The position numbers were made by a program, and so were the translations under genes. The notes below the pieces were generated by a model. The model was given only the letters and a program-made list of their open reading frames with translations, did not search any database and was not told the origin of the DNA. 55,393 nt of DNA from Candidatus Gemmiger faecavium (lineage in GTDB: Bacteria > Bacillota > Clostridia > Oscillospirales > Ruminococcaceae): contig DXFO01000062.1 of the NCBI GenBank assembly GCA_019114415.1, forward strand, positions 1 through 55,393, given 5' to 3'. Below are positions 4,324 to 28,992 of the stretch, piece after piece. How positions within the stretch are numbered: the first letter of the stretch is position 1; the number at the start of each line of letters is the position of its first letter.

Positions 4324-4506
4324 TACGCCTGCAAGGCCCATTGTCCGTCCGCTGCCCATAAGGACGGAAAAATCCCTGGACCGTTACAGTGAAAAGAGAG
4401 GACGCCGAAAAAATTTTTGTTTTTTGTCGGACAGGAAAAAGGGGATACCCCCGCGGGAAAGGGCCGCTTACAATGGTTACAACCTGTTTGCAGACGCCGG
4501 TTGTGC

Positions 4507-4535
4507 TTGCACAGACGGGCAAAACAGAGTAGAAT
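4507..4535 (+). promoter_or_regulatory. Promoter of the polysaccharide operon
   Basis: TTGCAC (4507-4512) and TAGAAT (4530-4535) have an ideal 17-bp spacer. The predicted transcript starts near 4542, giving a leader of about 60 nt before rfbC. Confidence 0.75.
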
Positions 4536-4600
4536 ATCACTGTATAAGTAGAAGTATGCCCGGCCGTGCCGGACTTAATAAAGACAGAGGAGCAACAAAG

Positions 4601-5167: not shown

Positions 5168-5218
5168 TCCCGGCGTCCAGCCGTCCCAACCACACCAAAC
5201 CGGAAAGGCGGAACCTGT

Positions 5219-6019
5219 TTGCATACCATCAAAAACTATTTTGTCGGCTTTTGGCGCTACCGCTACCTGCTGCAAAACCTCATCACCCGTGACTTCAAGC
5301 TCAAATACCGCCGCAGCGTTCTGGGCGTGGCCTGGAGCGTGCTCAACCCGCTGCTGACCTGCCTGGTCATGTGGGCGGTGTTCGGCTCGCTGTTCAACAG
5401 CCGCGGGCAGGGGATTGAAAACTTCCCGGTATTCCTGATCATCGGTCAGCTGATGTTCAACTTCTTCCGGGAAGCTACCACCATGGCCATGGAGAGCGTC
5501 CTCAAAAACGCTCCGCTGCTGCGCAAGGTCTATATCCCCAAATATGTTTTCCCTCTGGAAAAGACCTGCTTTGCCCTGGTCAACTGCCTGTTCAGCTTTG
5601 TGGCGCTGCTTATCGTGGTGCTGGTCACCCGGGCGCCTCTGTCCCTGTCCACCGCCCTGCTGGCGCTGTACCCGCTGGTCATGCTCTTCTTTTTCTGCCT
5701 GGGCATCGGACTTTTGCTGTCGGCGCTGTACGTCTTTGTGCGTGACATCATGCACATCTGGGAGGTTTTCTGCACGCTGCTGGTCTATGGCAGCGCCATC
5801 TTCTACGATCCCCCCCAGATGGGCATTGCCTGGGTGCAGTATGCCATCAACCTCAACCCCATCTACTGGTATATTACCTCTGTGCGCAGCTGCGTGATGT
5901 GGGGCCAGGGGCTGACGGCCAACATGCTGCTCATCGACTTTTTGTGCGCCGCGCTCAGCATGACGCTGGGACTGTGGGTGTTCAAGGCCAATCAGGACAA
6001 GTTTGTCCTGTATATGTAA
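5219..6019 (+). CDS. Polysaccharide ABC exporter, permease (Wzm/TagG type)
   Basis: A 266-residue membrane protein of the ABC-2 family. The best start is the TTG at 5219, with AAAGGCGG just upstream; no suitable ATG is near, and the N-terminus (HTIKNYFVGFWRYRYLLQNL) is typical of Wzm/TagG proteins. The cytoplasmic DFKLKYRRSVLGVAWSVLNP motif before the first membrane segment is characteristic. About six membrane segments follow, with FVRDIMHIWE in the middle and YDPPQMG later. It forms the channel that exports undecaprenyl-linked polysaccharide or teichoic acid, working with the ATPase encoded 12 bp downstream. Confidence 0.9.
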   Translation: MHTIKNYFVGFWRYRYLLQNLITRDFKLKYRRSVLGVAWSVLNPLLTCLVMWAVFGSLFNSRGQGIENFPVFLIIGQLMFNFFREATTMAMESVLKNAPLLRKVYIPKYVFPLEKTCFALVNCLFSFVALLIVVLVTRAPLSLSTALLALYPLVMLFFFCLGIGLLLSALYVFVRDIMHIWEVFCTLLVYGSAIFYDPPQMGIAWVQYAINLNPIYWYITSVRSCVMWGQGLTANMLLIDFLCAALSMTLGLWVFKANQDKFVLYM

Positions 6020-6031
6020 GGAGGGCGCAGG

Positions 6032-6805
6032 ATGGACAGCAAGACCCCGATCATCTCTGTTGAAAATGTCTCCATGCGCTTCAACCTTGCCAAGGAAAAG
6101 CACGAGAGCCTGAAAGAATACTTTATCGCCCTCACCCACGGCGGCATCCGTTTTGACGAGTTCTTTGCCCTCAAGGATGTCACCTTCGACATCATGCCGG
6201 GGGACTTTTACGGCCTGATCGGCCTGAACGGCAGCGGCAAATCCACGCTGCTCAAGATCATTTCCGGCGTGTATAAGCCTTCCTCCGGAAAAGTCACGGT
6301 GCGCGGCACCATTGCGCCTCTCATTGAGCTGGGCGCCGGCTTTGACATGGACCTGACCGCCCGGGAAAATATCTTCCTCAACGGTACGGTGCTGGGCTAT
6401 ACCCCCAAATACATCCGCTCCAAATTTGACGAGATCGTGGAGTTCAGCGAGCTGCAAGATTTTCTGGATGTGCCGCTGAAAAACTACTCCAGCGGTATGG
6501 TGGCCCGTTTGGCCTTTGCCATCGCCACCATGACCAAGCCGGATATCCTGATTGCCGACGAGATCTTGTCGGTGGGCGACTTCCTCTTCCAGCAGAAGTG
6601 TGAAAAGCGCATGGCCGAGCTGATGAGCGGCGGCACCACCGTCATTCTGGTCAGCCATTCCATCGACCAGATCGAGCGCATGTGCAATAAGGTGGCATGG
6701 CTGGACCACGGCCATCTGCGGCGCAACGGCCTGACCGGGCCCATCGCCCAGGAGTACCGCCATTTCAAGAAACAGGACAGCATGAAGGCGGAAAAGCCGG
6801 AATGA
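6032..6805 (+). CDS. Polysaccharide ABC exporter, ATPase (Wzt/TagH type)
   Basis: A 257-residue ATPase that powers export through the preceding permease. It shows Walker A GLNGSGKST (residues 64-72), signature YSSGM (152-156), Walker B DILIADE (171-177) and the H-loop VSHSID. The long insert before Walker A and the IAPLIELGAGF segment mark the polysaccharide-exporter subgroup. It ends soon after the ATPase domain and so lacks the C-terminal carbohydrate-binding domain of many Wzt proteins. That makes recognition of a capped chain end less likely. GGAGGG precedes the ATG. Confidence 0.92.
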   Translation: MDSKTPIISVENVSMRFNLAKEKHESLKEYFIALTHGGIRFDEFFALKDVTFDIMPGDFYGLIGLNGSGKSTLLKIISGVYKPSSGKVTVRGTIAPLIELGAGFDMDLTARENIFLNGTVLGYTPKYIRSKFDEIVEFSELQDFLDVPLKNYSSGMVARLAFAIATMTKPDILIADEILSVGDFLFQQKCEKRMAELMSGGTTVILVSHSIDQIERMCNKVAWLDHGHLRRNGLTGPIAQEYRHFKKQDSMKAEKPE

Positions 6806-6875
6806 CGCTGCCCCGTCCGAGCCTTTGACTGCGCCCTGACCCCTTTGGGCGGGACGCATAAAGGGCATGCCCCGG

Positions 6876-6925
6876 GGCAAAGCCCGTCCGCTCTCTCACC
6901 GGGAGCGGCGGGGCTTTGCCTTTTT
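6876..6925 (+). terminator. Hairpin with T-run inside the polysaccharide operon
   Basis: GGCAAAGCCCGTCCGCTC and GAGCGGCGGGGCTTTGCC form a long stem followed by TTTTT, between the ATPase gene and the first glycosyltransferase. No clear promoter follows it, so it may work as a partial terminator that lowers expression of the downstream genes. Confidence 0.75.
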
Positions 6926-6960
6926 ACGGGGCTGCCCATCCATAGAATGCAGGAGTTTTT

Positions 6961-8838
6961 ATGCAGCAGAATCCGCAGGATCAAAACCGGCCGGCTGATG
7001 TGGCCGCACCGGACAGTGTCGGGGGAATGGCCAAACGCCTGATGGACCCGGCCCATCTCAAGAACCTGGCAGGCCGCAGCGTACGCACGCTGCGGGAGCA
7101 GGGCCTGGAACAGCTCTGGCGGGATGTGGTGTTCCGCGTGGGGCTGGCCTTTCACCATGACGGCTGGCGTCACCGGGCAGACATCCCCCTGCGCCGCACC
7201 CTCCGCGCCCAGCGCGCCGAAAATTTGCAGGGGCCCTGCATTTCGGTGGTGGTGCCGGTGTACAACACGCCCGTGCGCTTTTTCCGCCAGATGGTGCAGA
7301 GCGTCCAGCGCCAGACCTACCGCAACTGGCAGCTGGTGCTGATGGACGCCTCCGACGCCGAACACCCCCAGCCGGGGCAGCTGGCCCGACGGCTTGCCCA
7401 AAAGGACAGCCGCATCGTCTATCGCACCATCGAAAATGCCGGCATCGCCGCCAACACTACGGCGGGCTTTGCGGCGGCGACGGGGGAGGCGGTGGCCCTT
7501 TTGGACCACGACGATCTGCTCTATCCCAACGCCCTGTATGAGTGTGCCAAGGCTCTGAACGGCGGGGCGGACTTCGTCTATTCCGACGAGATCGTCCAGT
7601 CGGCGGACCTGAAAAAGCTGGGCGGCTACCATTTTAAGCCGGACTTTGCCCCCGACTATCTGCGGGGCTGCAATTACATCACCCACCTGGCCGTCTTTAC
7701 CCGTTCGCTGCTGGACGCGGTGGGCGCGGCCGAGTACAGCGAGTTTGACGGCGCCCAGGATCACGAGCTGTTCCTGCGCCTGACCGAGCGTGCCAGAAAG
7801 ATCGTGCACATCAAGCAGGTCCTGTATATCTGGCGGGGTCATGCCGGATCCACCGCCGCCGGTATGGAGGCCAAACCCTACGCCCTGGAAGCCGGCGTCC
7901 GCGCCGTGGATGCCCAGCTGGCAAGGCTGGGCATGCGGGGCAAGGCCATGCAGGCCCCCGGTGCGCCGGGTGCCTTCCAGGTGCGGTACGAGCTGACCGG
8001 CCGCCCGCTGGTCAGCGTGCTCATCCCCAACAAGGACCACGTTGAGGATCTGGACCGCTGCCTGCGCAGCCTGTACAAAAACGCCGGATACGATAATTTT
8101 GAAGTCCTGGTCATTGAGAACAACTCCACCGACCCGGCGACCTTTGCCTACTATGACCGCATCGTGGCCGACCCGGCCATGCCCCGGTGCAAGGTGGTGC
8201 GCTATCACGGCGGGTTCAACTTCTCGGCCATCAATAACTTTGGTGCCCGGTATGCCAGCGGCGAGTATCTGCTGCTGCTGAACAACGACATTGAGATCCT
8301 GTCCCCCGACTTTGTGCGGGAACTGCTCAGCTATGCCCAGCGGGCCGATGTGGGCGCGGTGGGCGCCAAGCTCTACTATCCCGACGACACCATCCAGCAC
8401 GCGGGCGTGCTCATGGGTATCAACGGCAGCGCGGGCCACAGCCACAAGAGCTATCCCCGCAAAGCTGTGGGCGATCTGTACCGCCTGGTCACCACCCAGA
8501 ACTATATGGCGGTCACCGGTGCCTGCCTGATGACCCGGGCCTCCCTCTACCGCCAGATGGGCGGACTGGATGAGAAGGATTTTGCCGTGGCCTACAATGA
8601 TGTGGACTACTGCCTCAAGTTGTGGAAGCGCGGGCTTTTGAATGTCTACACCCCCCGGGCCGAGGCCTACCACTATGAAAGCAAGAGCCGGGGACTGGAC
8701 ACCACCGGCGAGAATGCCCGCCGCTATGAGCGGGAGAAGGCGGCCTTCTACAACAAGTACCGCCAGTGGATCGACAACTACGATCCGTATTATAATCCGC
8801 ATTTCAACAATTTGTATGAAAATTTTGGCCTGAAATAA
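6961..8838 (+). CDS. Double-domain GT2 glycosyltransferase
   Basis: A 625-residue cytoplasmic enzyme with two GT-A domains in tandem. Domain 1 starts at ISVVVPVYN (94-102) and has DHDD near 181, the metal and sugar-nucleotide motif. Domain 2 starts at PLVSVLIPNKDH (near 348), with LLLLNNDIEIL near 436 and the acceptor-side segment AYNDVDYCLKLWKRG. Such proteins add sugars to O-antigen or rhamnan-like chains. AGGAG lies 5 nt before the ATG. A paralogue of the same design lies two genes downstream. The sugar donor and linkage cannot be read from sequence; dTDP-rhamnose is a fair guess because rfbC is in the operon. Confidence 0.88.
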   Translation: MQQNPQDQNRPADVAAPDSVGGMAKRLMDPAHLKNLAGRSVRTLREQGLEQLWRDVVFRVGLAFHHDGWRHRADIPLRRTLRAQRAENLQGPCISVVVPVYNTPVRFFRQMVQSVQRQTYRNWQLVLMDASDAEHPQPGQLARRLAQKDSRIVYRTIENAGIAANTTAGFAAATGEAVALLDHDDLLYPNALYECAKALNGGADFVYSDEIVQSADLKKLGGYHFKPDFAPDYLRGCNYITHLAVFTRSLLDAVGAAEYSEFDGAQDHELFLRLTERARKIVHIKQVLYIWRGHAGSTAAGMEAKPYALEAGVRAVDAQLARLGMRGKAMQAPGAPGAFQVRYELTGRPLVSVLIPNKDHVEDLDRCLRSLYKNAGYDNFEVLVIENNSTDPATFAYYDRIVADPAMPRCKVVRYHGGFNFSAINNFGARYASGEYLLLLNNDIEILSPDFVRELLSYAQRADVGAVGAKLYYPDDTIQHAGVLMGINGSAGHSHKSYPRKAVGDLYRLVTTQNYMAVTGACLMTRASLYRQMGGLDEKDFAVAYNDVDYCLKLWKRGLLNVYTPRAEAYHYESKSRGLDTTGENARRYEREKAAFYNKYRQWIDNYDPYYNPHFNNLYENFGLK

Positions 8839-8883
8839 GCCGATGCACCGACAAACCTGCTCCGTGTAAAGGAGGATATGGTC

Positions 8884-9696
8884 ATGCCGCAATACGATGC
8901 TCCCCATAGTCGGATGCCTGCCGAAAAGGTGCAGGAACTGTTCCGCTATGCCTGGGCGGCTTTCCGCAGTCAGTTTGCCACGCTGGCACTGATGGGCATG
9001 GGGATTGGCGTCCTCAATCAGACGATCGATCTGATGCCCACCGCCCTGCGCATTGCCGCCGGCTTTGTGCTGTCTCCCGTTCTGGTGCTGGGCTTTTACC
9101 GGGCATGCCTGGAAGCCCTGTGCGGCAAAAAGCCCCGCTGGGGAATGATGCTGTGCGGCGTGAAGAACCTGCACACCCTGGGCAATGCTCTGCTGATGGG
9201 GCTGCCCGCGGCACTTCTGGATGTGCTGCTGATCCTCTGCAATGTGGGGGCCTCGGGACTGTATATGGCTGCCGCCCAGAACTCCAATACCATGCTGCTG
9301 AGCGTTTCGGTGCTGATCGCCCGGGTGGCGGTGCAGCTGTGGTACCTCTACCGGTTCAGCCTGCTGGAATACACCTGGCTCACCGGCCGGGCCGGGAGCC
9401 TGCGTCCGGCGGTAGATATGACCATGAAAAAGACCCGGGGGACCCTGGGTTACGCAGTGCGGTTTGCCATCGGGCTGCTGTTGTGCTACCTGCCGGTGCT
9501 CGCGGTGGGCGGGACGGCAGGCAACCTGATTGTCCGGGCCGGAGTGGATACCACGGCCGCGCTGTCGGCGGGGGTGGCGGTGAATATCCTGCTGGATGCC
9601 GTCACGCCGTTCTTTGTGATGGCCAGGCTGACCTTTGCCGCCAGCTATTTTGACACGATCAAACGGGAATTTTCTTCCACAGAGGGATTGGTATGA
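8884..9696 (+). CDS. Integral membrane protein, DUF975-like
   Basis: A 270-residue protein with about six hydrophobic segments. I chose the ATG at 8884 because AGGAGG is 8 nt upstream; the ATG at 8878 is only 2 nt from it. The layout resembles DUF975 membrane proteins: a short N-terminal helix (PAEKVQELFRYAWAAFRSQF), membrane pairs, a FSLLEYTWL segment and the amphipathic SLRPAVDMTMKKTRGTL. This is by general pattern only. It lies between two paralogous glycosyltransferases, and its stop overlaps the next start (ATGA at 9693). A role in the same polysaccharide pathway, such as holding the glycosyltransferases at the membrane, is inference. Confidence 0.7.
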   Translation: MPQYDAPHSRMPAEKVQELFRYAWAAFRSQFATLALMGMGIGVLNQTIDLMPTALRIAAGFVLSPVLVLGFYRACLEALCGKKPRWGMMLCGVKNLHTLGNALLMGLPAALLDVLLILCNVGASGLYMAAAQNSNTMLLSVSVLIARVAVQLWYLYRFSLLEYTWLTGRAGSLRPAVDMTMKKTRGTLGYAVRFAIGLLLCYLPVLAVGGTAGNLIVRAGVDTTAALSAGVAVNILLDAVTPFFVMARLTFAASYFDTIKREFSSTEGLV

Positions 9697-11555
9697 ACCT
9701 GAAGCTCAAACGTATGCGGGAACTGATGGGTTACGCCCGCACCCTGACCAGGGAACAGGGGGCAGGCGCCATGCTGCAGCGGGCAGCGGGCTTTGCTGCC
9801 CGGCGGCTGCTGCCCCACCGGGGACGGTATCTGCCCTCCAAAAAGGCGCTGGCCGCCCAGCGGGAGGAGGATACCTCGGCCTTTCCCGTGATCTGCATCC
9901 TGACGCCGCTGTACAATACGCCGCCCAAGTATCTGGAGTGGTTCCTGGACAGTGTGCAGGGCCAGACCTGCGGCAGCTGGCAGCTCTGCCTGGCCGATGC
10001 CTCCGATGACGCCCATGCCTATGTGGGGGAGACCGTCCGCCGCCGTGCCGGGACCGATCCCCGCATCCGCTACTGCAAAATTGAAAACGCCGGCATTGCG
10101 GCCAACACCAACGCCGCCGCCGGGCTGGCCGACGGGCCTTACCTGGCCCTGGCCGACCACGACGACGAGCTGGCCCCCCATGCCGTCTACGCCATGGGCC
10201 GGGCTATCCTGGACGGGGAGGCAAAGGGGGCAAGACCCCGCTTCCTGTACAGCGACGAAGCCCTGTTCCGCCGCACGCCCAAAGACGCTCACGTGGGCCA
10301 CTTCAAGCCGGACTATGCCCCGGAGTACCTCATGGCCTGCAACTATATCTGCCATCTGGCGGTGTTTGAAAAGTCCCTGTTTGAGGCGGTGGGCGGGGAA
10401 CGCCCCGCCTGCGACGGCGCCCAGGACCATGACCTTTTCCTGCGCATGATCGACGAGATGCAGCGCACCGACCCCGCCGCTGCACCGGTGCACCTGCCCC
10501 AGGTGCTTTATTACTGGCGGGTACACGCGGCGTCCACCAGCGGCGGTACCGGGGCCAAACCCTATGTGGTGCAGGCGGCCCAAAAGGCGGTGAGCGACCA
10601 TCTGGCCGCCACCGGCCGCAAAGGCGAAGTGGAGGAAGGCAAGTTCTCGGGGCTTTGCCATGTGCGCTGGCAGCTGCCCGACCCGCAGCCCCTGGTCAGC
10701 ATCCTGATTCCCAACAAGGACCACACCGACGACCTGGAAAAATGCCTGCACAGCCTGTATGCCCGGACCAACTACGACCGGTTCGAGGTCATCGTCATTG
10801 AGAACAACTCCACCGAGCAGAAAACCCGGGACTATTACAAGACGCTGCCCCAGCGGTATGAGGACTGCCGTGTGGTGGAGTATCAGGGCGGTTTCAACTT
10901 CTCGGCCATCAACAACTTCGGACGCAAGGCGGCAAAAGGCGACTTCCTTCTGCTGCTGAACAACGATGTGGAGATCCTCAGCCACGACTGGCTGGGGGAG
11001 ATGGTGGCCGAAGCCAGCCAGCCCGGCGTGGCGGCCTGCGGGGCCATGCTCTACTATCCCGACGACACCATCCAGCATGCGGGCGTCATCACCGGGTTGG
11101 GAGGCTACGCGGGCCACAGCCACAAGTACCATCGCCGGGACGCCAGCGGATATATGTTCCGCCTGGCCACCGTGCAGGACTACTCCGCCGTGACGGCCGC
11201 CTGCCTGCTGGTCCGGGCCGAGGTCTATGACGCGCTGAATGGCCTGGATGAGGAATTCACCGTGGCTTTCAATGACGTGGACTTCTGCCTGCGCATCCGG
11301 GAAGCAGGGTGGCGCATCGTCTGGACACCCTACGCCGAGCTCTACCACTATGAGAGCAAGAGCCGCGGCTCCGACGAAGTGGACCCCGTCAAGAAAGCCC
11401 GCTTCGACGCCGAGCGCACCCGCCTGTATGCCCGCCATGGCCGGGAGAACATCCTCCGTGACCCGTACTATAACCCGTCCCTCTCTCTGGATTACGAGGA
11501 TTTCCGGGAAAGCGCCGACCTGCGCAACCTGAAAAACGCCGGGATGAAGCTGTGA
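9693..11555 (+). CDS. Double-domain GT2 glycosyltransferase (paralogue)
   Basis: A 620-residue paralogue of the enzyme at 6961-8838, visibly similar along its whole length. Domain 1 begins at VICILTPLYNT (near 65) with DHDDELAPH near 153. Domain 2 begins at PLVSILIPNKDH (near 332) with LLLLNNDVEIL near 420 and FNDVDFCLRI near 525. Identical short motifs such as YYPDDTIQHAGV and YHYESKSRG occur at matching positions in both. It starts inside the stop of the previous gene and is therefore translationally coupled. It is the last gene of the rfbC operon. Two such enzymes would fit a polymer with a multi-sugar repeat. Confidence 0.88.
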   Translation: MNLKLKRMRELMGYARTLTREQGAGAMLQRAAGFAARRLLPHRGRYLPSKKALAAQREEDTSAFPVICILTPLYNTPPKYLEWFLDSVQGQTCGSWQLCLADASDDAHAYVGETVRRRAGTDPRIRYCKIENAGIAANTNAAAGLADGPYLALADHDDELAPHAVYAMGRAILDGEAKGARPRFLYSDEALFRRTPKDAHVGHFKPDYAPEYLMACNYICHLAVFEKSLFEAVGGERPACDGAQDHDLFLRMIDEMQRTDPAAAPVHLPQVLYYWRVHAASTSGGTGAKPYVVQAAQKAVSDHLAATGRKGEVEEGKFSGLCHVRWQLPDPQPLVSILIPNKDHTDDLEKCLHSLYARTNYDRFEVIVIENNSTEQKTRDYYKTLPQRYEDCRVVEYQGGFNFSAINNFGRKAAKGDFLLLLNNDVEILSHDWLGEMVAEASQPGVAACGAMLYYPDDTIQHAGVITGLGGYAGHSHKYHRRDASGYMFRLATVQDYSAVTAACLLVRAEVYDALNGLDEEFTVAFNDVDFCLRIREAGWRIVWTPYAELYHYESKSRGSDEVDPVKKARFDAERTRLYARHGRENILRDPYYNPSLSLDYEDFRESADLRNLKNAGMKL

Positions 11556-19646: not shown

Positions 19647-20630
19647 ATGGCACATACGGTTATGGTCACCGGCGCGGACGGGTTTATCGGCAGTCATCTG
19701 ACGGAGGAGCTGGTCAAGCGCGGCGAGAAGGTGCGTGCCTTCTGCCTGTACAATTCCTTCGGGTCCTGCGGCTGGATCGACACCCTGCCCCCCGAGATCA
19801 AAAACGAGATCGACATCTTTATGGGCGATATCCGCGACCCCAACGGCGTCCGCACCGCCATGCGCGGCCAGGAGCGGGTGTTCCATTTGGCGGCCCTCAT
19901 CGCCATCCCGTTCTCCTACCACAGCCCGGACAGCTATGTAGACACCAACATCAAGGGCACCCTCAACGTGCTCAACGCCGCCCGTGAGCTGGACACTTCC
20001 CGCGTGCTGGTGACCTCCACCAGCGAGGTCTACGGCACCGCCCAGTATGTGCCCATCGACGAGCACCATCCTTACCAGGGCCAGAGCCCCTACTCCGCCA
20101 CCAAGATCGGCGCCGACCGCCTGGCCGAGAGCTTCTACCGCAGCTTTGACCTGCCGGTATCCATCGTGCGACCCTTCAACACCTACGGCCCCCGCCAGTC
20201 CGGCCGGGCCATCATCCCCACCATCATCACCCAGCTGCTGGCCGGCCAGACCGAGCTCAAGCTGGGCAACCTGGCGCCCACCCGTGACTTCAACTACGTC
20301 AAGGATACGGCGGCAGGCTTTATGGCCATCGCCGACTGCGACGCCGCCATCGGCCAGGAACTGAACATCGCCACCGGCGTGGAGCACTCCATTGGCGACC
20401 TGGCCAACGAACTCATTGCCCAGATCAACCCCAACGCCAAGATCGTCTGCGAGACTGAGCGCCTGCGCCCCGAAAAGAGCGAGGTCAACCGTCTGCTGGG
20501 CGACGCCACCAAGCTGCGCAACATGACCGGCTGGGCGCCCAAGTACACCTTTGCGGAAGGCCTGGCCGAGACCATCGAGTTTTTGCGCGGCAACCTTGAT
20601 TCCTACAAGGTCGGCCAGTATATCCTGTGA
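19647..20630 (+). CDS. NAD-dependent sugar-nucleotide 4,6-dehydratase, LegB-like
   Basis: A 327-residue short-chain dehydrogenase/reductase of the extended sugar-nucleotide type. It has the NAD-binding motif VTGADGFIGSHL (residues 7-18), the active-site triad region TSTSEVYG followed by YSATK (Tyr/Lys near 150-154), and RPFNTYGPRQSGRAIIP. The NSFGSCGWIDTLPPEIK and FHLAALIAIPFSYHSPDSYVDTN segments match the LegB family, which makes UDP-linked 4-keto-6-deoxy HexNAc for legionaminic-type sugars. No other leg/neu/pse gene is present, so the product may be a different deoxy sugar. AAAGGAG precedes the ATG. Confidence 0.85.
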   Translation: MAHTVMVTGADGFIGSHLTEELVKRGEKVRAFCLYNSFGSCGWIDTLPPEIKNEIDIFMGDIRDPNGVRTAMRGQERVFHLAALIAIPFSYHSPDSYVDTNIKGTLNVLNAARELDTSRVLVTSTSEVYGTAQYVPIDEHHPYQGQSPYSATKIGADRLAESFYRSFDLPVSIVRPFNTYGPRQSGRAIIPTIITQLLAGQTELKLGNLAPTRDFNYVKDTAAGFMAIADCDAAIGQELNIATGVEHSIGDLANELIAQINPNAKIVCETERLRPEKSEVNRLLGDATKLRNMTGWAPKYTFAEGLAETIEFLRGNLDSYKVGQYIL

Positions 20631-22282
20631 TGTCTATGCTGAACAAACTGCGGGCAAGACCCGCTCTCTGCTGGGGGCTGGCCGCCGTCGCCGCTGTGGC
20701 GGTGGGGGTGGCCTGGTCCTATTACTGGCGGGTGTTCTACTACCTGGACGCGCGGGTCGATCCGCTGTTCGTCACCCTGGCCTGCGTGCTGGCCGCCCTG
20801 GGGGCGGTGCTGGCGGCGGGGGTGCTGCATTACGGCGTGCGGGACTTTGCGGCCAAGGGAGCGGTGTGCATCGCCGCCTGCGGGCTGCTCTTCGTCTTTG
20901 CCAACCCGCCCATGCAGACCCCCGATGAGTCGGAGCATTTTCTGCGTACCTACGCCATCAGCATGGGGCGCTTTGACTTTGACGCCCAGCGGGGCTATCC
21001 CGATGACGTCAGCGCGCTGTACAATGCCTTTCCCGGGGCGTGGGTCAATGCCCATACCTCGGCGGGGACGGTGACGGACGAGGAATCCGGCGAGACCGAA
21101 TACTACACCACCGCCGGAAACGCCCTCAAACAGTACGGCGAGGACGGCAAGGTCCAGAGCATCGCCGACAGCTTTGACGAATATTTCAACGACCCCGACA
21201 CCACCCCGGTGCATGAGCCGGTCAGTTTTCTGATCCTGCCCTTCCTGCCGGGGGCGGCGGGGATGTTCCTTGCACGCCTGCTGGGCTTTGGGGCGCTGGG
21301 CTGCCTGTATGCCGGGCGTATCGCAAACCTGATCGTATACACGCTGCTGTGCTGGCTGGCCCTGCGCAATGCGCAGAAGTTCCGGCCTACCTTTCTCTGC
21401 GTCATGCTGCTGCCCATGTCCCTCTGGATGGGCGCCAGCCTCAGCTATGACTCGGCGCTGCTGGCCTGTTATTACCTGATGCTGGCCCTGCTGACCCGGC
21501 GCACCTGGACCACCCGGGATGCTGCCATCTATGCGGCGGCCTGCGTCTGGGTCAACGTGGCAAAGCCCTATATCAATCTGCTGTGGGCGCTGCTGCCGCT
21601 GATCCTGCTGCGGCAGGCTTTCTGTGCCAAAGGCCGACGCTGGATGTGGACGGCAGGCATGCTGGCGGCGTCGCTGGCCGTGACCCGCCTGCTGGAGATC
21701 TACGGCGTGGTGTTCCGCTACAATTACGGCGAGATCGGCCGTATGGGCGGCAGCGACGTGGACCAGATGGGCCAGCTTGTTTTCCTTTTGAAAAATCCGC
21801 TGCGTTATCTGGCGGTTCTGATGGGTACACTGTACGAGAATGACTTTTTCGTCGGCCAGCTGGGCCTTTTCGGCTGGAAAGACCTGCCCATCGCATTTTT
21901 GAGCCTGACCGGCCCGGTGGTGCTTCTGGCAGGCACGGTGCTTTCGGCGGGCAAGGGCCAGTCCATCACCCGGCGGCGCACGGTGCCGCTGGCATTGTTC
22001 GGGCTGGTATACGCCGTGGGAGCCATGACCGCCATGTATATCACCTACACCCCGGTCACCATGGTGCGCATTGTGGGGCTTCAGACCCGGTATTTCCTGC
22101 CGGTCATCCTGGTGGCCATGATGCTGCTGGCCGCGCCTTTGCGCCGGATGCTCTCCGCCGAGCTTTCCCCCCAGAAAGCCGAGCGCTGGGCCGCACGGCT
22201 CTTTGCGCCCTATGCGGCCTTTGGGGCGGTTTTACTGTTCCAGCACTATTTTATCGGGCCGATCAGCACCATCCCGGTGTGA
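20630..22282 (+). CDS. DUF2142-like polytopic membrane protein
   Basis: A 550-residue membrane protein with about 11-12 hydrophobic segments. The loop after the third segment has NPPMQTPDESEHFLRTYAIS (near residues 90-109), the PPDE.H-type motif of DUF2142 proteins, which are thought to be GT-C-like and occur in polysaccharide clusters. The start overlaps the stop of the LegB-like gene (TGATG), so the two are translationally coupled; an ATG two codons later is also possible. An acidic soluble loop lies at about 135-195. Acting on a lipid-linked sugar at the outer face of the membrane is inference from the motif. Confidence 0.75.
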   Translation: MSMLNKLRARPALCWGLAAVAAVAVGVAWSYYWRVFYYLDARVDPLFVTLACVLAALGAVLAAGVLHYGVRDFAAKGAVCIAACGLLFVFANPPMQTPDESEHFLRTYAISMGRFDFDAQRGYPDDVSALYNAFPGAWVNAHTSAGTVTDEESGETEYYTTAGNALKQYGEDGKVQSIADSFDEYFNDPDTTPVHEPVSFLILPFLPGAAGMFLARLLGFGALGCLYAGRIANLIVYTLLCWLALRNAQKFRPTFLCVMLLPMSLWMGASLSYDSALLACYYLMLALLTRRTWTTRDAAIYAAACVWVNVAKPYINLLWALLPLILLRQAFCAKGRRWMWTAGMLAASLAVTRLLEIYGVVFRYNYGEIGRMGGSDVDQMGQLVFLLKNPLRYLAVLMGTLYENDFFVGQLGLFGWKDLPIAFLSLTGPVVLLAGTVLSAGKGQSITRRRTVPLALFGLVYAVGAMTAMYITYTPVTMVRIVGLQTRYFLPVILVAMMLLAAPLRRMLSAELSPQKAERWAARLFAPYAAFGAVLLFQHYFIGPISTIPV

Positions 22283-22336: not shown

Positions 22337-24331
22337 ATGACGCTTGTTGGCGGGCTTTTGGTCCTGGCGCTGGTCTGCGCCGTCTCGGTCTGCGCGGCGG
22401 CGGATACCGGCCGGGACGCTGCGGTGTTCCCGCTGCCCGTGCTGGCCGGCAGCGTCTGCCTGCTGCTGTGCGGCGGGTATCTGGGACTGCTGGTCCCGGC
22501 GCTCTGGGTCGATTATGCTCTTTTGGCCGCGCTGGCGGTGGGGCTTGGCGTTCACGCGGGGCGTGAACTCCTGAAAGCCGCACTGTTCAGCCCCGGCTTT
22601 TTGTTTTTTGCCGCGGCATCCGTAGTGTTCTGGGTGATGTTCGCGGTGCTGCAGCCCATGTTCACCCAGTGGGATGAATTCACCTTCTGGGGGGCGGCGG
22701 CAAAACTGCTGAAAGAACACGGCATGCTCTATCCCGCCGATCCCGTCAACCTCAAGGCAGCGGCGGGACTGCCGGGGCTGGGCCTTGTGTCTTTCTTTGT
22801 GCAGGGGCTGTCCCCGGTGTTTACCGAGTGGCAGTGCCTTGCCGCCTACGATATGCTGTTCATGGCCTGCATTGCGGCGGCGTCGGCATTGCCCCGCCGC
22901 CGCTGGGCGCACAGCGCCATGGTGCTGGCGGCCGGAGTGCTGCTGCCGTTCTTTTTCAGCGTTGTCTCCCGGGGAACGGCCAGCACTGTCTACGCCAATG
23001 CCATGGCCGACATCCCGCTGGCACTGCTGTTCGGCGGGGTGGTGAGCCTGTGGTTCGCGGTGGGTCCCGGCAAACTGGGCCTGCTGCTCAACGCTCTGCC
23101 CCTGGCGCTTCTGACCCTGGCCAAGGACATGGGCTTTGCCTATGCCTTGATCGCAGTGTTCCTCATTTTCCTGGACCTGATCTTCGGTCAGGAACACAAG
23201 GATCTGCGCCCGGTGCGGATCTTCGGCGGGGCGCTGTGGCGTGCCGTGGTGCTGGCGGTGCCGGTGCTGGCAGCCTTTGTCAGCTGGAACCGCTATACCG
23301 CCGCCTGCCTGAACTCGGGCAGCGGCACCGTGGGCGGGGCGGGCCTGAGCTATGGCCAGGTCCTGACCGGGGGCCTTGCCCAGTTTTTCGGCATCGGCCG
23401 TACCGAAAAGTTCTCCGACATCATGAACCTGATGGGGGACGCTTTCTTTACCCGGGACGTCTGCCTGCTGGGGCCCGGCGTCCGGGCGCTGGCGGCCATC
23501 ACCCTGGTGGCAGCTGCGGCTTTTGTTTTTGCGGGCAAGGGGGCGCCCCGGCGGCGGGTCCTGGTGACCTGGCTGGGCTTTGCCTTCTGTTTTGCGGCCT
23601 TCTACCTGTTCCACCTGATTTTGTACTGCTATAACTTCTCCGACGTGGAAGCCTATATCCTCAAGGATTACGAGCGCTACATCGGCCCCTACTATCAGGG
23701 CTGGATGCTGGCCATGCTCTGCCTGCTGGGGCGCTCGGCGGCGGAATACAAGGGCCGGTGGTATCGCCTGGCGGACGGCGCCCTGTTGGGGGCGGCGGCC
23801 TGCGTGCTGGCGGTGTTTTTCTGGCGGGGCATTCCCACGGCGGGCTTCTGGACAAAGGCCGACAGCCTGTACCTGCTGCGCCAGGACGTCAAGGAGCGCG
23901 CTGCCGCGGCCAACGAGGTCCTGGACTGGGACGATACCGTTCTGGTCATCAGCCAGGGGGACGACGCCACCCGCTGGTACTACTACAACTATGAACTGAC
24001 CGCCCGTGTGGCGAGAGGCTACGGCGGATACTTCAACGGCGAGGATGCGTCCAGCCGCTGGGATTCCGACTTTATGAACCTGGTGGAGAGCGAAAACTGG
24101 ACGCTGTACGACTATAAGGCAGTCTGCACCCCTGATGCCCTGGTGGCATACCTGAAGGAAAAGGGCTGCAACTATCTGCTCATCGACCGGGCCGACGATT
24201 ACCTGGAACGGGATTTCAGCGATTTGTTCGAGGGCGGGCTGACCGCCGACATGCCCGCCACGCTCTACCGGTTCGACCCGGATGCCGCGACGCCCTTCAC
24301 ACCGGTGGCCGTGGCGGAAAGCGAGGGGTGA
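22337..24331 (+). CDS. GT-C-like membrane protein, copy A
   Basis: A 664-residue protein with 11-13 hydrophobic segments in the first 510 residues and a soluble C-terminal part of about 150 residues, predicted to be outside. The first outer loop has TQWDEFTFWGAAAKLL (near 112-127), an acidic motif where GT-C transferases keep their catalytic Asp/Glu. Further marks are ILKDYERYIGPYYQGWML near 440-457 and VISQGDD in the C-terminal domain. All these have counterparts at matching positions in the protein at 24999-27068. I recognise no named family; a lipid-phosphate-sugar dependent transferase is the best inference. GAGGG is upstream of the ATG. Confidence 0.7.
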   Translation: MTLVGGLLVLALVCAVSVCAAADTGRDAAVFPLPVLAGSVCLLLCGGYLGLLVPALWVDYALLAALAVGLGVHAGRELLKAALFSPGFLFFAAASVVFWVMFAVLQPMFTQWDEFTFWGAAAKLLKEHGMLYPADPVNLKAAAGLPGLGLVSFFVQGLSPVFTEWQCLAAYDMLFMACIAAASALPRRRWAHSAMVLAAGVLLPFFFSVVSRGTASTVYANAMADIPLALLFGGVVSLWFAVGPGKLGLLLNALPLALLTLAKDMGFAYALIAVFLIFLDLIFGQEHKDLRPVRIFGGALWRAVVLAVPVLAAFVSWNRYTAACLNSGSGTVGGAGLSYGQVLTGGLAQFFGIGRTEKFSDIMNLMGDAFFTRDVCLLGPGVRALAAITLVAAAAFVFAGKGAPRRRVLVTWLGFAFCFAAFYLFHLILYCYNFSDVEAYILKDYERYIGPYYQGWMLAMLCLLGRSAAEYKGRWYRLADGALLGAAACVLAVFFWRGIPTAGFWTKADSLYLLRQDVKERAAAANEVLDWDDTVLVISQGDDATRWYYYNYELTARVARGYGGYFNGEDASSRWDSDFMNLVESENWTLYDYKAVCTPDALVAYLKEKGCNYLLIDRADDYLERDFSDLFEGGLTADMPATLYRFDPDAATPFTPVAVAESEG

Positions 24332-24335
24332 GCCC

Positions 24336-24965
24336 ATGAACGAGACCAAACGGACGCTGCGGCTGTTTGCGTTGTGCTATGCCGTGGCGGTGATTTTGTG
24401 GGTGGTGTTCTGCCTGGGCAAGTGTGCGGTCATGCTGATGCACCGGGCGTCGGGGGATATGCCCCACGCCACCCTGAGTGCGGAGGACCTGACCTTCGAG
24501 AGCTTTGAATGTTATCTCGACCTGGAATGGGACACCCCGCCGGACGACGACCCCAACTGGTATCTGTCCACCGACAACGACCCCCATATCTTTTATGACG
24601 GCGGCGGCTATCTGGAGACGGTGCGCCTGTACGCCAAACACCGCCTGCCCCCGGGCAGCGTGGTATTGTACTACCTCAAACCCGGCCAGACCGATTACAG
24701 CGAGGCCCAGAAAGTCTACGGCTACGTGGTGGAGGACGGCGTGTATGAGTTCGACCTGGGCGGCAGGGAAGTGTCCGGGCTGCGCATCGACCCTGACAGC
24801 GTGGGCGGCGTGGCGACGCTGTTTGCCGGCATCGAACTGAATCCCGCCGGATTCTGGGTCTGGCGCTTTGTGCCGGACGGCGGCCAGCTGCTGCTTCTTC
24901 TTGGCCTGCCCGCCGTGGCGGCTGCCGCATGGACTTTGCTGCGCGGCCGCCGGGAGGACGCCTGA
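24336..24965 (+). CDS. Doubly anchored companion protein, copy A
   Basis: A 209-residue protein starting 4 bp after the GT-C-like gene. One membrane segment lies at about residues 8-32 and a second at about 181-200, with a polar domain of about 150 residues between them that should face outward and looks rich in beta strands. The domain contains LSTDNDPHIFYDGGGY, VVLYYLKPGQTDYS, DGVYEFDLG and VSGLRIDPDS. The same pattern recurs in the protein at 27065-27718, also just after a GT-C-like gene. I do not recognise a named family. The fixed pairing suggests a complex with its neighbour. Confidence 0.75.
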   Translation: MNETKRTLRLFALCYAVAVILWVVFCLGKCAVMLMHRASGDMPHATLSAEDLTFESFECYLDLEWDTPPDDDPNWYLSTDNDPHIFYDGGGYLETVRLYAKHRLPPGSVVLYYLKPGQTDYSEAQKVYGYVVEDGVYEFDLGGREVSGLRIDPDSVGGVATLFAGIELNPAGFWVWRFVPDGGQLLLLLGLPAVAAAAWTLLRGRREDA

Positions 24966-24998
24966 CCCCCGCCATTACCCGAAAAGGAGGACCCCTGC

Positions 24999-27068
24999 AT
25001 GGAGCTGCTTTGCGTGTTTGCGTCAATGGCGGCATTGTTTCTGTTCTGCGCGTTTCTGACCCTGCGGTGCGGGCTGCACAGCGCCCTGGCGCCGCTGACT
25101 GCCCTGTCCGGAGCGGTTTTGTGGCTGACCCTCTGGGGCATGGCCGGCCCGCTGCTGGCCGGGGCCTGGATCCTGTTCGCAGCCTTTGCCGGGCTGGGCA
25201 TCTGGGCGCTGTGGCCCCGCAAGGGGGCAAAGCCCGACTACAAAAAACTGGTAAGCCCCGGGGCGGTGCTGTTCTGGGGCATGACGGCGGCCTTTGCCGT
25301 TTACTTTTTCATCCGCCAGCCCATGGCCACCGGTTTTGACGAACTCAACCTGTGGGCCACGGCGGTCAAGGTCACCAAGGTCGACAACAGCCTTTATTCC
25401 AACGCGGTGCTGGGCACCCCCTGGGCGGTCACCCAAAATCCCGGCCTGCCGCTGCTCAGCTATTTCTTCTGCTTTTTCGGCAGATATGCCGACTGGAAAA
25501 TCTATCTGGCCTACAACGCCCTTGCTTTTGCGGTGTTCGCCGCCGTGCTGGGCGGGCTGGGCTTCTCCCGCTGGCGGCTGGCAGTGCCGCTGGCCGCGGT
25601 GCTGTGGTGTGTGCCCTACTTCTTTACCACATACAACCACACCATCTACCTGAACACCGTGTACATGACCTCCTACGGCGATATTCCCGCCGGTCTTGTC
25701 ATGGGCGGCGCGGTGGCCGCATGGCTGGCCCTGCGCAGGACGGGAGGTCCCAAATGGGCCGTACTGCCCATCCTGGCCCTGGCCGCCAACACCAAGGCAA
25801 ACACCTTTGTGCTGGCATTGGTGGCCGCGGGCATCGTGGCGGTGGACGCCTGGCTTTTGCCGGAGGAGCGTCCTTTCCGCAAGGGTCTTTTGCGCCGCAC
25901 CGGTTTTGCGGCGGCATCCTTTGCCGCCCCGCTGGCGGTGTACTACCTCTGGAACATCCGCTATGTGGGGATGCTCGTCTCCAAAAATGCCGAGACCGGC
26001 GGCGTGGGGGAGACCAGCGCTGCCCTGTCCGATGTGGTGGTCAACGGCATCAGGATCTTGATGGGCCAGCCGGTGGAAGGCTTCTTTGCCGAGCGCAAAG
26101 ATCAGTTCCTTCAGGCCATTGCCGACATGGGCAACCAGTTCTGGACGGCTGACGGCAAGCTGAGCATGATCGGTCAGGGCCGCAACGTGGTGGTGCTGAT
26201 TTTGCTGGTCTTTGTGCTGGCGGCCGTTGTGGCGCCGGGCCTGGCCCTGCGGCTGCGGGTGGCCTGCGCCGCCGTGTGCAGCACCCTGTGCTTTTTGGGC
26301 TACAACCTGATGCTGGCGCTGAGCTACGGTTTCATCTTCAAGCCCTTCCAGGCGGAGAGCCTGACCGACTACAACCGCTACATTTACAGCTATTACATCG
26401 GCTGGTTTTTGATCGCCCTGGCCTGCCTGGCCCTGGCCTTGCAGGGCAGGACCGTCCCGGCCAAGGCGGAGGCGGCCCTCCCCGCATCCCCGTGGGACCG
26501 CCGCCGGGCGCTGGCGGGGCAGGGGGCCGTGCTGCTGCTGGCCTGTGCCATGCTGTTGCGCCTGAACCAGATGGTTCTGCCTCAGCTTTCGGTGCTGGGG
26601 TTCTCCGACAGCGAATTTGCCGACCGCAAGGCCGAGCGCGCCGAGGCCCAGCTGGTCTGCAGCTATCTGGAGGAGGATGACCGGGTCTTTTATGTCAGCC
26701 AGGGAGACAACGGCGAGGGCTGGTTCTCGGCGGTGTTTGACTTTTACCCGGTGCTGGTGGACTATTCCGGCGTTGTCTCCACTATGGAGGGCGGCGGCGG
26801 GACCTTCGGTTTGCCGGAGCTGGAACCGGAAGAGGAAAGCACCAAGAAATACTACTACCATCCTTACACCGCCCAACGTCTGGACGCCACCATCCGGGAA
26901 AACGGCTGCACCGTCATTTATCTGCAAACCATCGATGAGATTTTTGTGGAAAGCTACGCGGAGCTGTTCACCGACGGTCTGGCCGCCGCGATGAACGGGG
27001 AGACGCTGCTCTACCGCGTGACCGATGCGGGCTATACCCCCGTGGAAATGGAGGTGACCGCCCGATGA
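24999..27068 (+). CDS. GT-C-like membrane protein, copy B
   Basis: A 689-residue paralogue of the protein at 22337-24331 with the same plan: 11-13 membrane segments, then a soluble C-terminal domain. Counterpart motifs are TGFDELNLWATAVKVTK (near 110-126; acidic DE conserved), LTDYNRYIYSYYIGWFL (near 455-472), YVSQGDN (near 567) and ENGCTVIYLQTIDE near the end. Both copies finish with a YTPVE/FTPVA-type tail. AAAAGGAGG precedes the ATG. The similarity is clear but distant, so the two probably differ in donor or acceptor. The function is inferred only. Confidence 0.7.
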   Translation: MELLCVFASMAALFLFCAFLTLRCGLHSALAPLTALSGAVLWLTLWGMAGPLLAGAWILFAAFAGLGIWALWPRKGAKPDYKKLVSPGAVLFWGMTAAFAVYFFIRQPMATGFDELNLWATAVKVTKVDNSLYSNAVLGTPWAVTQNPGLPLLSYFFCFFGRYADWKIYLAYNALAFAVFAAVLGGLGFSRWRLAVPLAAVLWCVPYFFTTYNHTIYLNTVYMTSYGDIPAGLVMGGAVAAWLALRRTGGPKWAVLPILALAANTKANTFVLALVAAGIVAVDAWLLPEERPFRKGLLRRTGFAAASFAAPLAVYYLWNIRYVGMLVSKNAETGGVGETSAALSDVVVNGIRILMGQPVEGFFAERKDQFLQAIADMGNQFWTADGKLSMIGQGRNVVVLILLVFVLAAVVAPGLALRLRVACAAVCSTLCFLGYNLMLALSYGFIFKPFQAESLTDYNRYIYSYYIGWFLIALACLALALQGRTVPAKAEAALPASPWDRRRALAGQGAVLLLACAMLLRLNQMVLPQLSVLGFSDSEFADRKAERAEAQLVCSYLEEDDRVFYVSQGDNGEGWFSAVFDFYPVLVDYSGVVSTMEGGGGTFGLPELEPEEESTKKYYYHPYTAQRLDATIRENGCTVIYLQTIDEIFVESYAELFTDGLAAAMNGETLLYRVTDAGYTPVEMEVTAR

Positions 27069-27718
27069 AAGACGCTCTGCGCAAGTTTTTTGCCCGCCGC
27101 GGCGCATTGCCGGCGGCCTGCTATCTGCTGACGCTGGCCGGCTGGCTGGTGCTGGGGGCGTGGAATTTCGGCAGCGATGCTGTATCCCGCGCCGAGGGGA
27201 CCCTGACCGAACAGCAGATTTCTCTGGGAGAATTCCAACTGGTGGACCTGGACGCGCAGGAGGGGGGATATACCTCCACCAGCAGCGACCCCCAGATCAT
27301 TCTGGAGGATGTGTCCGACCGGGTGGTGCGCACCCTGAGTTATCAGGCGGAGTTCGACAGTGAACCCCGGGAGATGTGCCTGTATTACACCACCGCAGTG
27401 GGGGAGCCGTACAGTCAGGACAAGCGGGTCTTTCCCACCATCGGGGAGGACGGCAGCTACATTTACACCCTGCCCCGCACCACCATCGTGTCCCTGCGTC
27501 TGGACCCCTGCAGCCCCGACGCCACCGACCCTGTCACCGTGCAGTTTGCGGGGGACGCCATCACCTTGAATGATGCCGACGCCCTGCCCTCGGGCCTGGC
27601 CTACTGGCTGCCCAGCTGGTATCAGCTGTTCTGCTTCCTGCTCTATCCCGCGCTGGCCGCGGCGATTTTGAGCTGGCTGCGCGCCGTGTGGCAGGAACTC
27701 CGCACCCGCGGCAAGTGA
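27065..27718 (+). CDS. Doubly anchored companion protein, copy B
   Basis: A 217-residue paralogue of the protein at 24336-24965. It starts within the stop of the GT-C-like copy B (ATGA), so the pair is translationally coupled. One membrane segment is near residues 15-32 and one near 185-205. The outer domain shows SSDPQIILEDVSDR, MCLYYTTAVGEPYS, DGSYIYTLP and VSLRLDPCS, in the same order and spacing as copy A. The preserved order in two copies argues for a functional unit. It is the last gene of the operon; a terminator follows at 27767. Confidence 0.75.
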   Translation: MKDALRKFFARRGALPAACYLLTLAGWLVLGAWNFGSDAVSRAEGTLTEQQISLGEFQLVDLDAQEGGYTSTSSDPQIILEDVSDRVVRTLSYQAEFDSEPREMCLYYTTAVGEPYSQDKRVFPTIGEDGSYIYTLPRTTIVSLRLDPCSPDATDPVTVQFAGDAITLNDADALPSGLAYWLPSWYQLFCFLLYPALAAAILSWLRAVWQELRTRGK

Positions 27719-27931: not shown

Positions 27932-28420
27932 GTGCTGGGAATCGAGGAACTGTACCGCCGCTACCGGGGCGACGTCTACCGCTACCTTGCCGCCCTGACC
28001 CATGACCCGGCCCTGGCCGAGGACCTTCTCAGCGAGACCTTTCTCTGCGCGGTACAGAAAGCGGGGACTTTCCGGGAACAGAGCAGCGAAAAGACCTGGC
28101 TGTTCGGTATAGCCCGCAACCTGTGGCTGCAATCCCTGCGGAAAAACCGCCCCACGGTGGAGTACAACGACCTGCTGGGGCTGTACGTGGAGGACCGGGT
28201 GGGGGAGGCCTACGATTTCCGCCAGCTGGCCGGGCGGGTGGCCGAATTGCTGGACGCCCTGCCCGAGCGGGAGCGCACCATCGTTCAGCTGCGTGCCCAG
28301 GGCCTGCCCTATGAGGAGATTGCCGCCCGCTGCGGTATCCGGGCGGGATCGGCCCGGGTCATCGAATACCGCACCCGTCAACGATTGAAAGAAATTTTGC
28401 GAAAGGAGGGCTATCTGTGA
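27932..28420 (+). CDS. ECF-type RNA polymerase sigma factor
   Basis: A 162-residue sigma-70 family protein with region 2 (about 5-65; LAEDLLSETFLCAVQK and TWLFGIARNLWLQSL) and region 4 (about 105-155; LPERERTIVQLRAQGLPYEE, then a helix-turn-helix). The GTG at 27932 is the start, after AAAGGAGGG. It directs RNA polymerase to extracytoplasmic-stress promoters. The next gene encodes a zinc-finger anti-sigma factor and overlaps its stop (GTGA). The upstream region has GAAACTTTGTAACA at 27813-27826, which could be the -35 part of a self-recognised promoter, but the matching -10 is not certain. Confidence 0.9.
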   Translation: MLGIEELYRRYRGDVYRYLAALTHDPALAEDLLSETFLCAVQKAGTFREQSSEKTWLFGIARNLWLQSLRKNRPTVEYNDLLGLYVEDRVGEAYDFRQLAGRVAELLDALPERERTIVQLRAQGLPYEEIAARCGIRAGSARVIEYRTRQRLKEILRKEGYL

Positions 28421-28992
28421 CAGAAGAAACCATGCAAACCCGTCCCTTGCCCGAAGTACAGCCCGGTATGCCGGACGATCTGCCCGACCTGCCCTGCGAT
28501 GTCTGCCGGGACCTGATCCCTCTGGTGCAGGATGGCGCCGCCAGTCCCACCGCCACCGAGATGGTCCGCCGCCATATGGAGCACTGCGAAAGCTGCCTTG
28601 CTTTCTGGCAGGAGGGCGCCCCCGCCCAGCCCGTCCCCGATGACGGCAAGGTGCTGGGCAAGATCTACAAGCGCCTGCGCCTGCTGCTCTTTGCCGCCCT
28701 GGCGGCGGGGGCCCTGTTTGGCCTGTGGCTGATGAGCTACGGATTTGCGGGGCAGTTCAATCTGCTCATCATGCCGGCGGTGGGGGCTGTGGGAGCCCTG
28801 CTGCTCCGCCGCCGCTGGTACCTGACGCCCCTGTGTGTGGCGGTGCTGGGATTTGTCTGGCATCTCTCGCTGGAAAGCACCGGACCTGTCCTGGGGCTGA
28901 TCTATGCTGCCTTTTACGGCGGACTCTGCCTGCTGGGCGGGGTGGCCGCCCTGCTGTTCCGCTATGCATTCGGAAAGGAGGACCTTCCATGA
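28417..28992 (+). CDS. Zinc-finger anti-sigma factor
   Basis: A 191-residue membrane protein. The N-terminal domain has a zf-HC2-type signature: CDVC (residues 28-31), then HMEHCESC (residues 51-58), the H-x3-C-x2-C of ZAS anti-sigma factors. Four hydrophobic segments follow at about 86-180 instead of the single one in classical anti-sigmas. The start is GTG at 28417, 6 nt after AAAGGAGGG and overlapping the sigma stop. It should bind the ECF sigma at the membrane and release it on a signal. The polytopic C-terminus may be the sensor; this is inference. Confidence 0.85.
   Translation: MTEETMQTRPLPEVQPGMPDDLPDLPCDVCRDLIPLVQDGAASPTATEMVRRHMEHCESCLAFWQEGAPAQPVPDDGKVLGKIYKRLRLLLFAALAAGALFGLWLMSYGFAGQFNLLIMPAVGAVGALLLRRRWYLTPLCVAVLGFVWHLSLESTGPVLGLIYAAFYGGLCLLGGVAALLFRYAFGKEDLP

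Follow-up and report, generated by a model that had tools for sequence, protein, structure and literature searches.

Tandem gene pairs in Gemmiger and its relatives encode a predicted GT-C glycosyltransferase and a doubly anchored partner with a predicted carbohydrate-binding-module-like fold

We analyzed a 55,393-nucleotide contig of Candidatus Gemmiger faecavium (DXFO01000062.1 of assembly GCA_019114415.1; here called the window), which carries at positions 22337-27718 two tandem, paralogous gene pairs, each encoding a large polytopic membrane protein ("large") followed by a small one ("small"). The small gene is found almost exclusively behind a large gene, the pairs belong to a conserved cassette headed by a LegB-type dehydratase gene, and the cassette is linked to genes for nonulosonates (sialic-acid-like sugars). 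We think it about an even chance that each pair is a two-subunit GT-C transferase, with large as the catalytic and small as the acceptor-binding subunit, that builds a legionaminic-type surface glycan. Labels beginning with L, G, and C denote the loci, genomes, and contigs of the source genome that we compared.

The tandem pairs had been described in a first-pass annotation made from the letters of the window; we found the four open frames in place, and alignment bears out their paralogy. Large A (664 aa; 22337..24331, + strand) is a predicted GT-C glycosyltransferase with 14 membrane helices and an outer C-terminal domain, according to its AlphaFold2 model, Foldseek matches, and topology. Small A (209 aa; 24336..24965, +) begins 4 nucleotides (nt) behind the large A stop, a start that agrees with those of close homologues; its hidden Markov model (HMM) match of 277 bits and alignment with the modelled small B suggest two membrane helices around a beta-sandwich like that of a carbohydrate-binding module (CBM). 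Large B (689 aa; 24999..27068, +; HMM match of 944 bits) is 28% identical to large A over 675 columns (E = 1e-39). Small B (217 aa; 27065..27718, +), which shares its first 4 nt with the end of large B, is 29% identical to small A (E = 4e-16). All four frames have the third-codon-position GC pattern of real genes. The motifs listed by the annotation are present in both copies: QWDEFTFW/GFDELNLW, DYERYIGPYYQGW/DYNRYIYSYYIGW, and ISQGD/VSQGD in the large proteins; S..DP.I, LYY, DG.Y, and LR.DP.S in the small ones, where the D of "DP," R145, D147, and P148 are invariant among 44 aligned sequences.

We built trees of large and of small from 32 two-pair loci (31 named loci plus the window); in both, copy A stands apart from copy B, with 0 misplacements among 64 proteins. 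This clean separation suggests that duplication of the pair predates Gemmiger and its relative genera. Some genomes have three pairs (L229, G400, and G491). Large A is 94% identical to its Gemmiger gallinarum counterpart.

Association of small with large is near absolute. Within the genus, single-sequence queries detected large in 34 of 35 genomes and small in 34 of 35, the single miss being a genome that is 68% complete; the same kind of query matched neither protein in any of 26 other genomes searched. In profile searches, large was found in 37 and small in 30 of 197 genomes of a family sample; in a class sample of 291 genomes, the corresponding numbers were 12 and 1, the latter being the source genome itself. 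Small thus has the narrower detectable range. Among 58 small matches in the 197 family genomes, 57 have a large match ≤400 bp upstream on the same strand, and the remaining match belongs to an ABC-2 permease, of which it forms a domain. In 43 named loci, which come from genera that include Gemmiger, Subdoligranulum, Fournierella, Anaerofilum, and Faecalibacterium, all 72 small frames lie directly behind a large frame; with start positions taken as approximate, the gap is ≤40 nt in 68 of 72 (overlaps included), and the overlap is exactly 4 nt in 37 of 72. Small genes occurring mostly apart from large genes, one of the two outcomes by which the annotation would have had its reading refuted, were not seen.

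Sequence comparison by itself says little about large. Neither window protein has a Pfam or NCBIfam match over curated cut-offs (large B has a weak FixQ match, E = 0.037), none of 25 members scanned exceeded a Pfam cut-off (best E = 0.018), and a PDB sequence search with large gave nothing at E ≤10. Large is nevertheless predicted to have a GT-C fold, based on a high-confidence AlphaFold2 model of large A (pLDDT, 92.3; pTM, 0.92). The 11 best Foldseek matches of this model in PDB are all GT-C enzymes or complexes (probability, 0.75 to 1.00; E, 9e-4 to 0.1): AftA (the best; E = 9e-4, probability 1.00), ArnT, Pmt4, AglB, ALG12, yeast oligosaccharyltransferase (OST), EmbC, AftD, and ALG3, some as two chains or entries. 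The search does not favor a fold outside GT-C, the second outcome that the annotation had named as refuting.

The predicted topology of large A is also consistent with chemistry at the outer face. We picked the 14 membrane helices by hand from the secondary structure of the model; placed with the N-terminus outside, they obey the positive-inside rule, with K+R making up 18% of inner and 6% of outer short loops across 40 sequences. Residues D113, E114, P146, P204, W317, R447, Y448, and D620 are invariant in this alignment, and all 17 conserved residues that we mapped sit in outer loops or close to where a helix emerges on the outer side, as is expected for a GT-C active site. The D113-E114 pair (22673..22678, +; in large B, the D-E of GFDELNLW at 25338..25343, +, by alignment with large A) agrees with the presence in GT-C enzymes of one or more conserved acidic residues in the first large outer loop and is the candidate catalytic site. 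The annotation placed this motif in the first outer loop; the motif stands, but by our helix assignment it lies in the first large outer loop, after predicted membrane helix 4 rather than helix 1.

Small likewise lacks informative sequence relatives. The window small proteins have no Pfam or NCBIfam match over cut-off (a weak LpqS match of small A has E = 0.0098), and no convincing match was found in PDB; one weak match to a capsid protein (7bjp; E = 0.017) we judged to be due to chance. A Pfam scan of 24 small members found DUF1858 in one and otherwise a best E of 0.069. The DUF1858-containing protein (L108:4944-5795, +), from a congener, is a single open frame and has no large neighbor in the stretch examined.

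The AlphaFold2 model of small B has high confidence (pLDDT, 96.2; pTM, 0.86) and predicts a CBM-like beta-sandwich at residues 50 to 168 (27212..27568, +), flanked by transmembrane helices at residues 14 to 44 and 185 to 216; the double membrane anchoring proposed by the annotation is thus reproduced in the model. The best Foldseek match in PDB is the xylan-binding module CBM86 (6sgf; E = 1.8e-6; TM-score, 0.55 over the target), and further matches include domains of two hydrolases, CBM6 and CBM35 modules, and some non-carbohydrate sandwiches. The outer C-terminal domain of large does not match the small domain (0.7%).

The small domain also occurs in other settings. Two permeases carry it in front of an ABC-2 transporter domain (PF01061): L164:310-2010 (-), where it occurs twice in tandem, and L238:1294-2766 (+). 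By eye, their neighbors are an RmlD-like gene, a GT2-like gene, and an ABC ATPase-like gene; it is possible that the domain serves as a substrate-recognition module of polysaccharide exporters. Separately, a predicted secreted protein (L239:1465-2856, -) ends in a weak match to the small domain (17 bits), which we did not count as evidence; its GH43-like appearance by eye was not borne out by any Pfam match.

A second kind of reuse emerged from large homologues that lack a detected small. We examined 20 stretches around such matches, 18 of which yielded a large frame plus neighbors (the large frames of L249 and L264 were missed in the first neighbor survey, and that of L264 was recognized later). 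At L261, L265, and L267, where we detected large but no free small, the adjoining DUF2142 protein (PF09913, 117 to 145 bits) starts with an additional helix and an outer domain. In hhalign, this outer domain scores 94.7% against the profile of the small domain over 116 columns, compared with 0.1% for a reversed control and ≤0.2% for ten column shuffles. The DUF2142 fusion would join a small-like module to another GT-C-type partner.

These settings bear on whether small takes any part in sugar recognition. If it instead only helped the GT-C protein to assemble or kept it stable, strict pairing and the frequent 4-nt overlap would also be explained, since they suit a chaperone subunit too. Against such a helper role, which we regard as unlikely, stand the CBM-like fold and the recurrence of the domain in two ABC-2 permeases, where it precedes the transporter domain, and in a DUF2142 protein.

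Other large-only homologues point to the sugar donor. Their GT2-like neighbors proved in all 6 tested cases to be GT2 fused to GtrA, located directly upstream of large (L248 and L253), directly downstream (L251), or two genes upstream (L254, L258, and L260). One of these lies in the source genome itself on contig C17, where a third large paralogue (L248:3865-5880, +) behind the GT2-GtrA fusion forms a compact two-gene, three-component system. A GT-A synthase and GtrA beside the GT-C gene, the hallmark of three-component systems, is found for this large-only paralogue and not for the paired large genes. Because GT2-GtrA is the donor-making half of such systems, the analogy suggests that the large family uses polyprenyl-phosphate sugar donors.

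The two pairs form the distal part of a six-gene unit: LegB-type dehydratase, DUF2142 protein, large A, small A, large B, and small B. The first gene (19647..20630, +) encodes a LegB-type NAD-dependent 4,6-dehydratase (NCBIfam TIGR04180; 500.5 bits versus a cut-off of 475). The second (20627..22282, +), which has a GTG start and overlaps the LegB stop by 4 nt, encodes a polytopic membrane protein (Pfam PF09913; 142.6 bits) that is probably a further GT-C-type enzyme. LegB was found in 36 and DUF2142 in 39 of the 43 named loci. LegB is missing from 7 loci: 5 of these lie at the end of a contig, neither gene is there at L227, and at L236 the flanks are present but LegB is not. Genes downstream of the cassette differ between named loci.

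The DUF2142 gene of the window operon invites comparison with lactococcal WpsI/WpsH, by analogy with which large could be a repeat-unit polymerase and small a co-polymerase or chain-length regulator whose sandwich would act as a timer or ruler for the chain and would not choose the acceptor. The layout described for that system in PMC12599335, PMC10821137, and PMC8327497 is indeed similar: a DUF2142-type protein with 11 transmembrane segments accompanies a second protein, in which a signal peptide and a transmembrane helix bracket a large outer loop. Large itself, however, had no DUF2142 match in Pfam scans of the window proteins and 25 members, and the likeness of small to WpsH is drawn from published descriptions. 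The roles of WpsI and WpsH are presented as putative in those papers, and PMC10821137 assigns polymerase and co-polymerase both ways round. We consider this explanation unlikely.

The nature of the glycan is suggested by nonulosonate genes. In the source genome, contig C25 carries four consecutive genes, LegC, a CBS-nucleotidyltransferase-like gene, NeuB, and NeuC, and three of the products score over curated cut-offs (LegC, 429 versus 420 bits; NeuB, 463 versus 400; NeuC, 368 versus 236). With LegB of the cassette, four enzymes of a legionaminic-type pathway (LegB, LegC, NeuB-type synthase, and NeuC-type epimerase) are thus over cut-off in this genome, which has two cytidylyltransferase-family matches as well. 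NeuB of Gemmiger lies elsewhere in the genome than the cassette. In the family sample, whose genomes are related, NeuB at ≥220 bits is present in 34 of 36 cassette genomes versus 26 of 161 others, and in 25 of the 36 it lies ≤6 kb from the cassette. For this count, large rows of GtrA-type or weak loci, duplicate rows, and NeuB rows of <220 bits were left out, and G522, whose sole large match has 64.7 bits, was placed with the cassette-less genomes. At L271, the genes even follow one another as LegB, DUF2142, large, small, LegC, nucleotidyltransferase, NeuB, and NeuC. Given this linkage, the surface glycan probably contains a legionaminic-type nonulosonate. Two sizeable polytopic proteins that match other families are encoded in clusters of relatives: a YfhO protein (L275:13263-15749, +; PF09586, 504 bits) and a protein that matches PgfM models below cut-off (L272:12466-14919, -).

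Could the system glycosylate surface proteins, as an oligosaccharyl- or O-glycosyltransferase, rather than a polysaccharide? The OST entries (AglB and yeast OST) and Pmt4 among the structural matches of large fit such a role, as does the PgfM-like protein at L272, Pgf proteins being named for protein glycosylation. Nonulosonates are, moreover, reported on flagellins. On the other hand, a CBM-like partner would better suit a polymer acceptor, and the YfhO family, represented in the L275 cluster, is described in PMC8035078 in connection with teichoic acid decoration. We regard protein glycosylation as very unlikely.

Several observations weigh against two-subunit GT-C transferases that make a nonulosonate glycan. 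Pairing is loose in the converse direction: 45 of 102 large match rows in the family sample, some of them fragments or split hits, have no small match directly behind. Distances in the trees of large and small are highly correlated but show no pair-specific co-evolution (large B with small B, 0.931; large B with small A, 0.936). Only AftA among the 11 GT-C matches reaches E ≤0.001, the others extending to 0.1, and TM-scores normalized to the query are 0.24 to 0.44. The TM-score of small B to CBM86 is 0.36 over the query; non-CBM sandwiches (O-GlcNAc hydrolase and the EphA2 ligand-binding domain) match small at E <0.001, and the conserved residues of its domain may be structural. No GT2-GtrA unit was found in the window operon, and the GtrA matches of the genome lie on contigs C10, C17, C31, and C32, with none on C56, the window contig. 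The DUF2142 fusion occurs in 3 of 7 family-level large-only loci; no DUF2142 was seen at L262, L263, and L266, and at L264 the contig stops within it. A further candidate fusion, at L236 (a Bacilli record), failed: the small domain gave no match to the N-terminal outer domain of the DUF2142 protein there (0.23%), which leaves the fusion claim resting on three loci. Finally, CMP-activated nonulosonates are cytoplasmic donors. The sugar moved in the GT-C steps therefore does not have to be the nonulosonate and may be another one.

Weighing these points, we retain the two-subunit transferase as our favored reading and propose the following mechanism. A lipid-linked sugar or oligosaccharide would reach the outer face of the membrane, where large would take it from a polyprenyl-(pyro)phosphate carrier by means of D113/E114. 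Small, held by its two membrane helices, would place the CBM-like sandwich above the membrane beside the active site, where it might grip the growing or acceptor polysaccharide. Two pairs plus the DUF2142 protein would make three GT-C-type steps, either successive or forming different linkages, which would assemble or decorate a surface glycan with a legionaminic-type nonulosonate; LegB, a first enzyme of that pathway, heads the cassette. The annotation had suggested an outer-face glycosylation or polysaccharide-modifying machine; models and genomics agree with it on the GT-C fold of large, the double anchoring of small, outer-face chemistry, and the survival of the pairing since an old duplication, and add the CBM-like fold of small and the LegB/DUF2142 cassette.

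Other features of the window lie outside the cassette. Directly behind it (27932-28992) are genes for a sigma-70-family factor and an anti-sigma-like zf-HC2 protein, which occupy the same place in some relatives only. A probable polysaccharide export and assembly locus (4445-11555) encodes an RmlC-family epimerase (PF00908), an ABC-2 permease (5219-6019; PF01061), a TagH/Wzt-like ATPase (6032-6805; below cut-off), and two double GT2-like proteins. We also considered a mobile origin, but found no phage match and a single large homologue (33%; OY725868.1:152876-154660) on a 305-kb replicon of Subdoligranulum variabile that is listed as a plasmid.

With a probability that we put a little short of even, the pairs represent a kind of GT-C enzyme not described before: two subunits are obligatory, the module that binds the acceptor is a CBM-like protein of its own with two membrane anchors, and the enzymes serve to build nonulosonate-containing wall glycans in gut bacteria around Gemmiger, while GT-C partners, DUF2142 proteins, and polysaccharide exporters exchange the same module. 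A 2021 review (PMC8035078) raises, as speculation and as an open question, that where the GT-C enzyme is smaller a further protein may be required to bind the acceptor polymer. The large-small family makes that question testable, since it offers a candidate partner that is almost never found without the enzyme, was duplicated together with it, and has a CBM-like predicted fold. The nonulosonate link further suggests that common gut commensals bear a sialic-acid-like glycan; the available portions of a 2025 review of gut bacterial surface polysaccharides (PMC12413058) do not name Gemmiger and call the capsule structure of Faecalibacterium unknown. We found no paper pairing GT-C with Gemmiger, nor one combining GT-C, an accessory CBM, and polyprenyl, and the sole paper that came up for nonulosonates together with GT-C is listed as a review on glycans in human immunity, but our search covered open-licence literature only and is weak evidence of absence.

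The annotation knew of no named system with this design, a statement that does not hold as worded: the published layout of lactococcal WpsI/WpsH is similar, and the idea that GT-C enzymes have a partner of their own to bind the acceptor was put forward earlier (PMC8035078 and PMC12802301). In the multi-component transmembrane glycosylation systems described in PMC8035078 (GT-A synthase, GtrA flippase, and GT-C transferase), the GT-C enzyme likewise works at the outer face, and large-only homologues, one of them in the source genome, similarly adjoin GT2-GtrA fusions. The paired large genes differ in that no GT2/GtrA unit was found in their operon and in having an anchored CBM-like partner and a LegB/DUF2142 context. 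WpsI/WpsH, as described in PMC12599335, PMC10821137, and PMC8327497, shares with our pairs a polytopic GT-C-type protein beside a protein whose outer loop is membrane-held at both ends. By these descriptions the two also differ: WpsI is a DUF2142 protein and large has no DUF2142 match; WpsH has a signal peptide and one transmembrane helix, while small has two predicted membrane helices; and our pairs are duplicated and tied to nonulosonate genes.

EmbC, AftD, and the GT136 enzyme ORF12 (PMC11127046) are described as combining a GT-C catalytic unit with a beta-sandwich module for the acceptor polysaccharide, as we propose here. A fused CBM is reported there to bind the acceptor, yet not to be essential in the conditions tested. 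In these enzymes the module is part of the protein, whereas in our pairs it is a separate, doubly anchored protein, with a similar domain fused to DUF2142 in three relatives. A 2025 paper (PMC12802301) suggests that the lipoproteins LpqZ and FecB fill the acceptor-binding role for mycobacterial AftA and AftB, so that a separate extracytoplasmic protein would stand in for a missing CBM; AftA is also the best structural match of large A. LpqZ and FecB are described there as lipoproteins with pockets of the substrate-binding-protein type, whereas small is predicted to present a CBM-like domain between two membrane helices.

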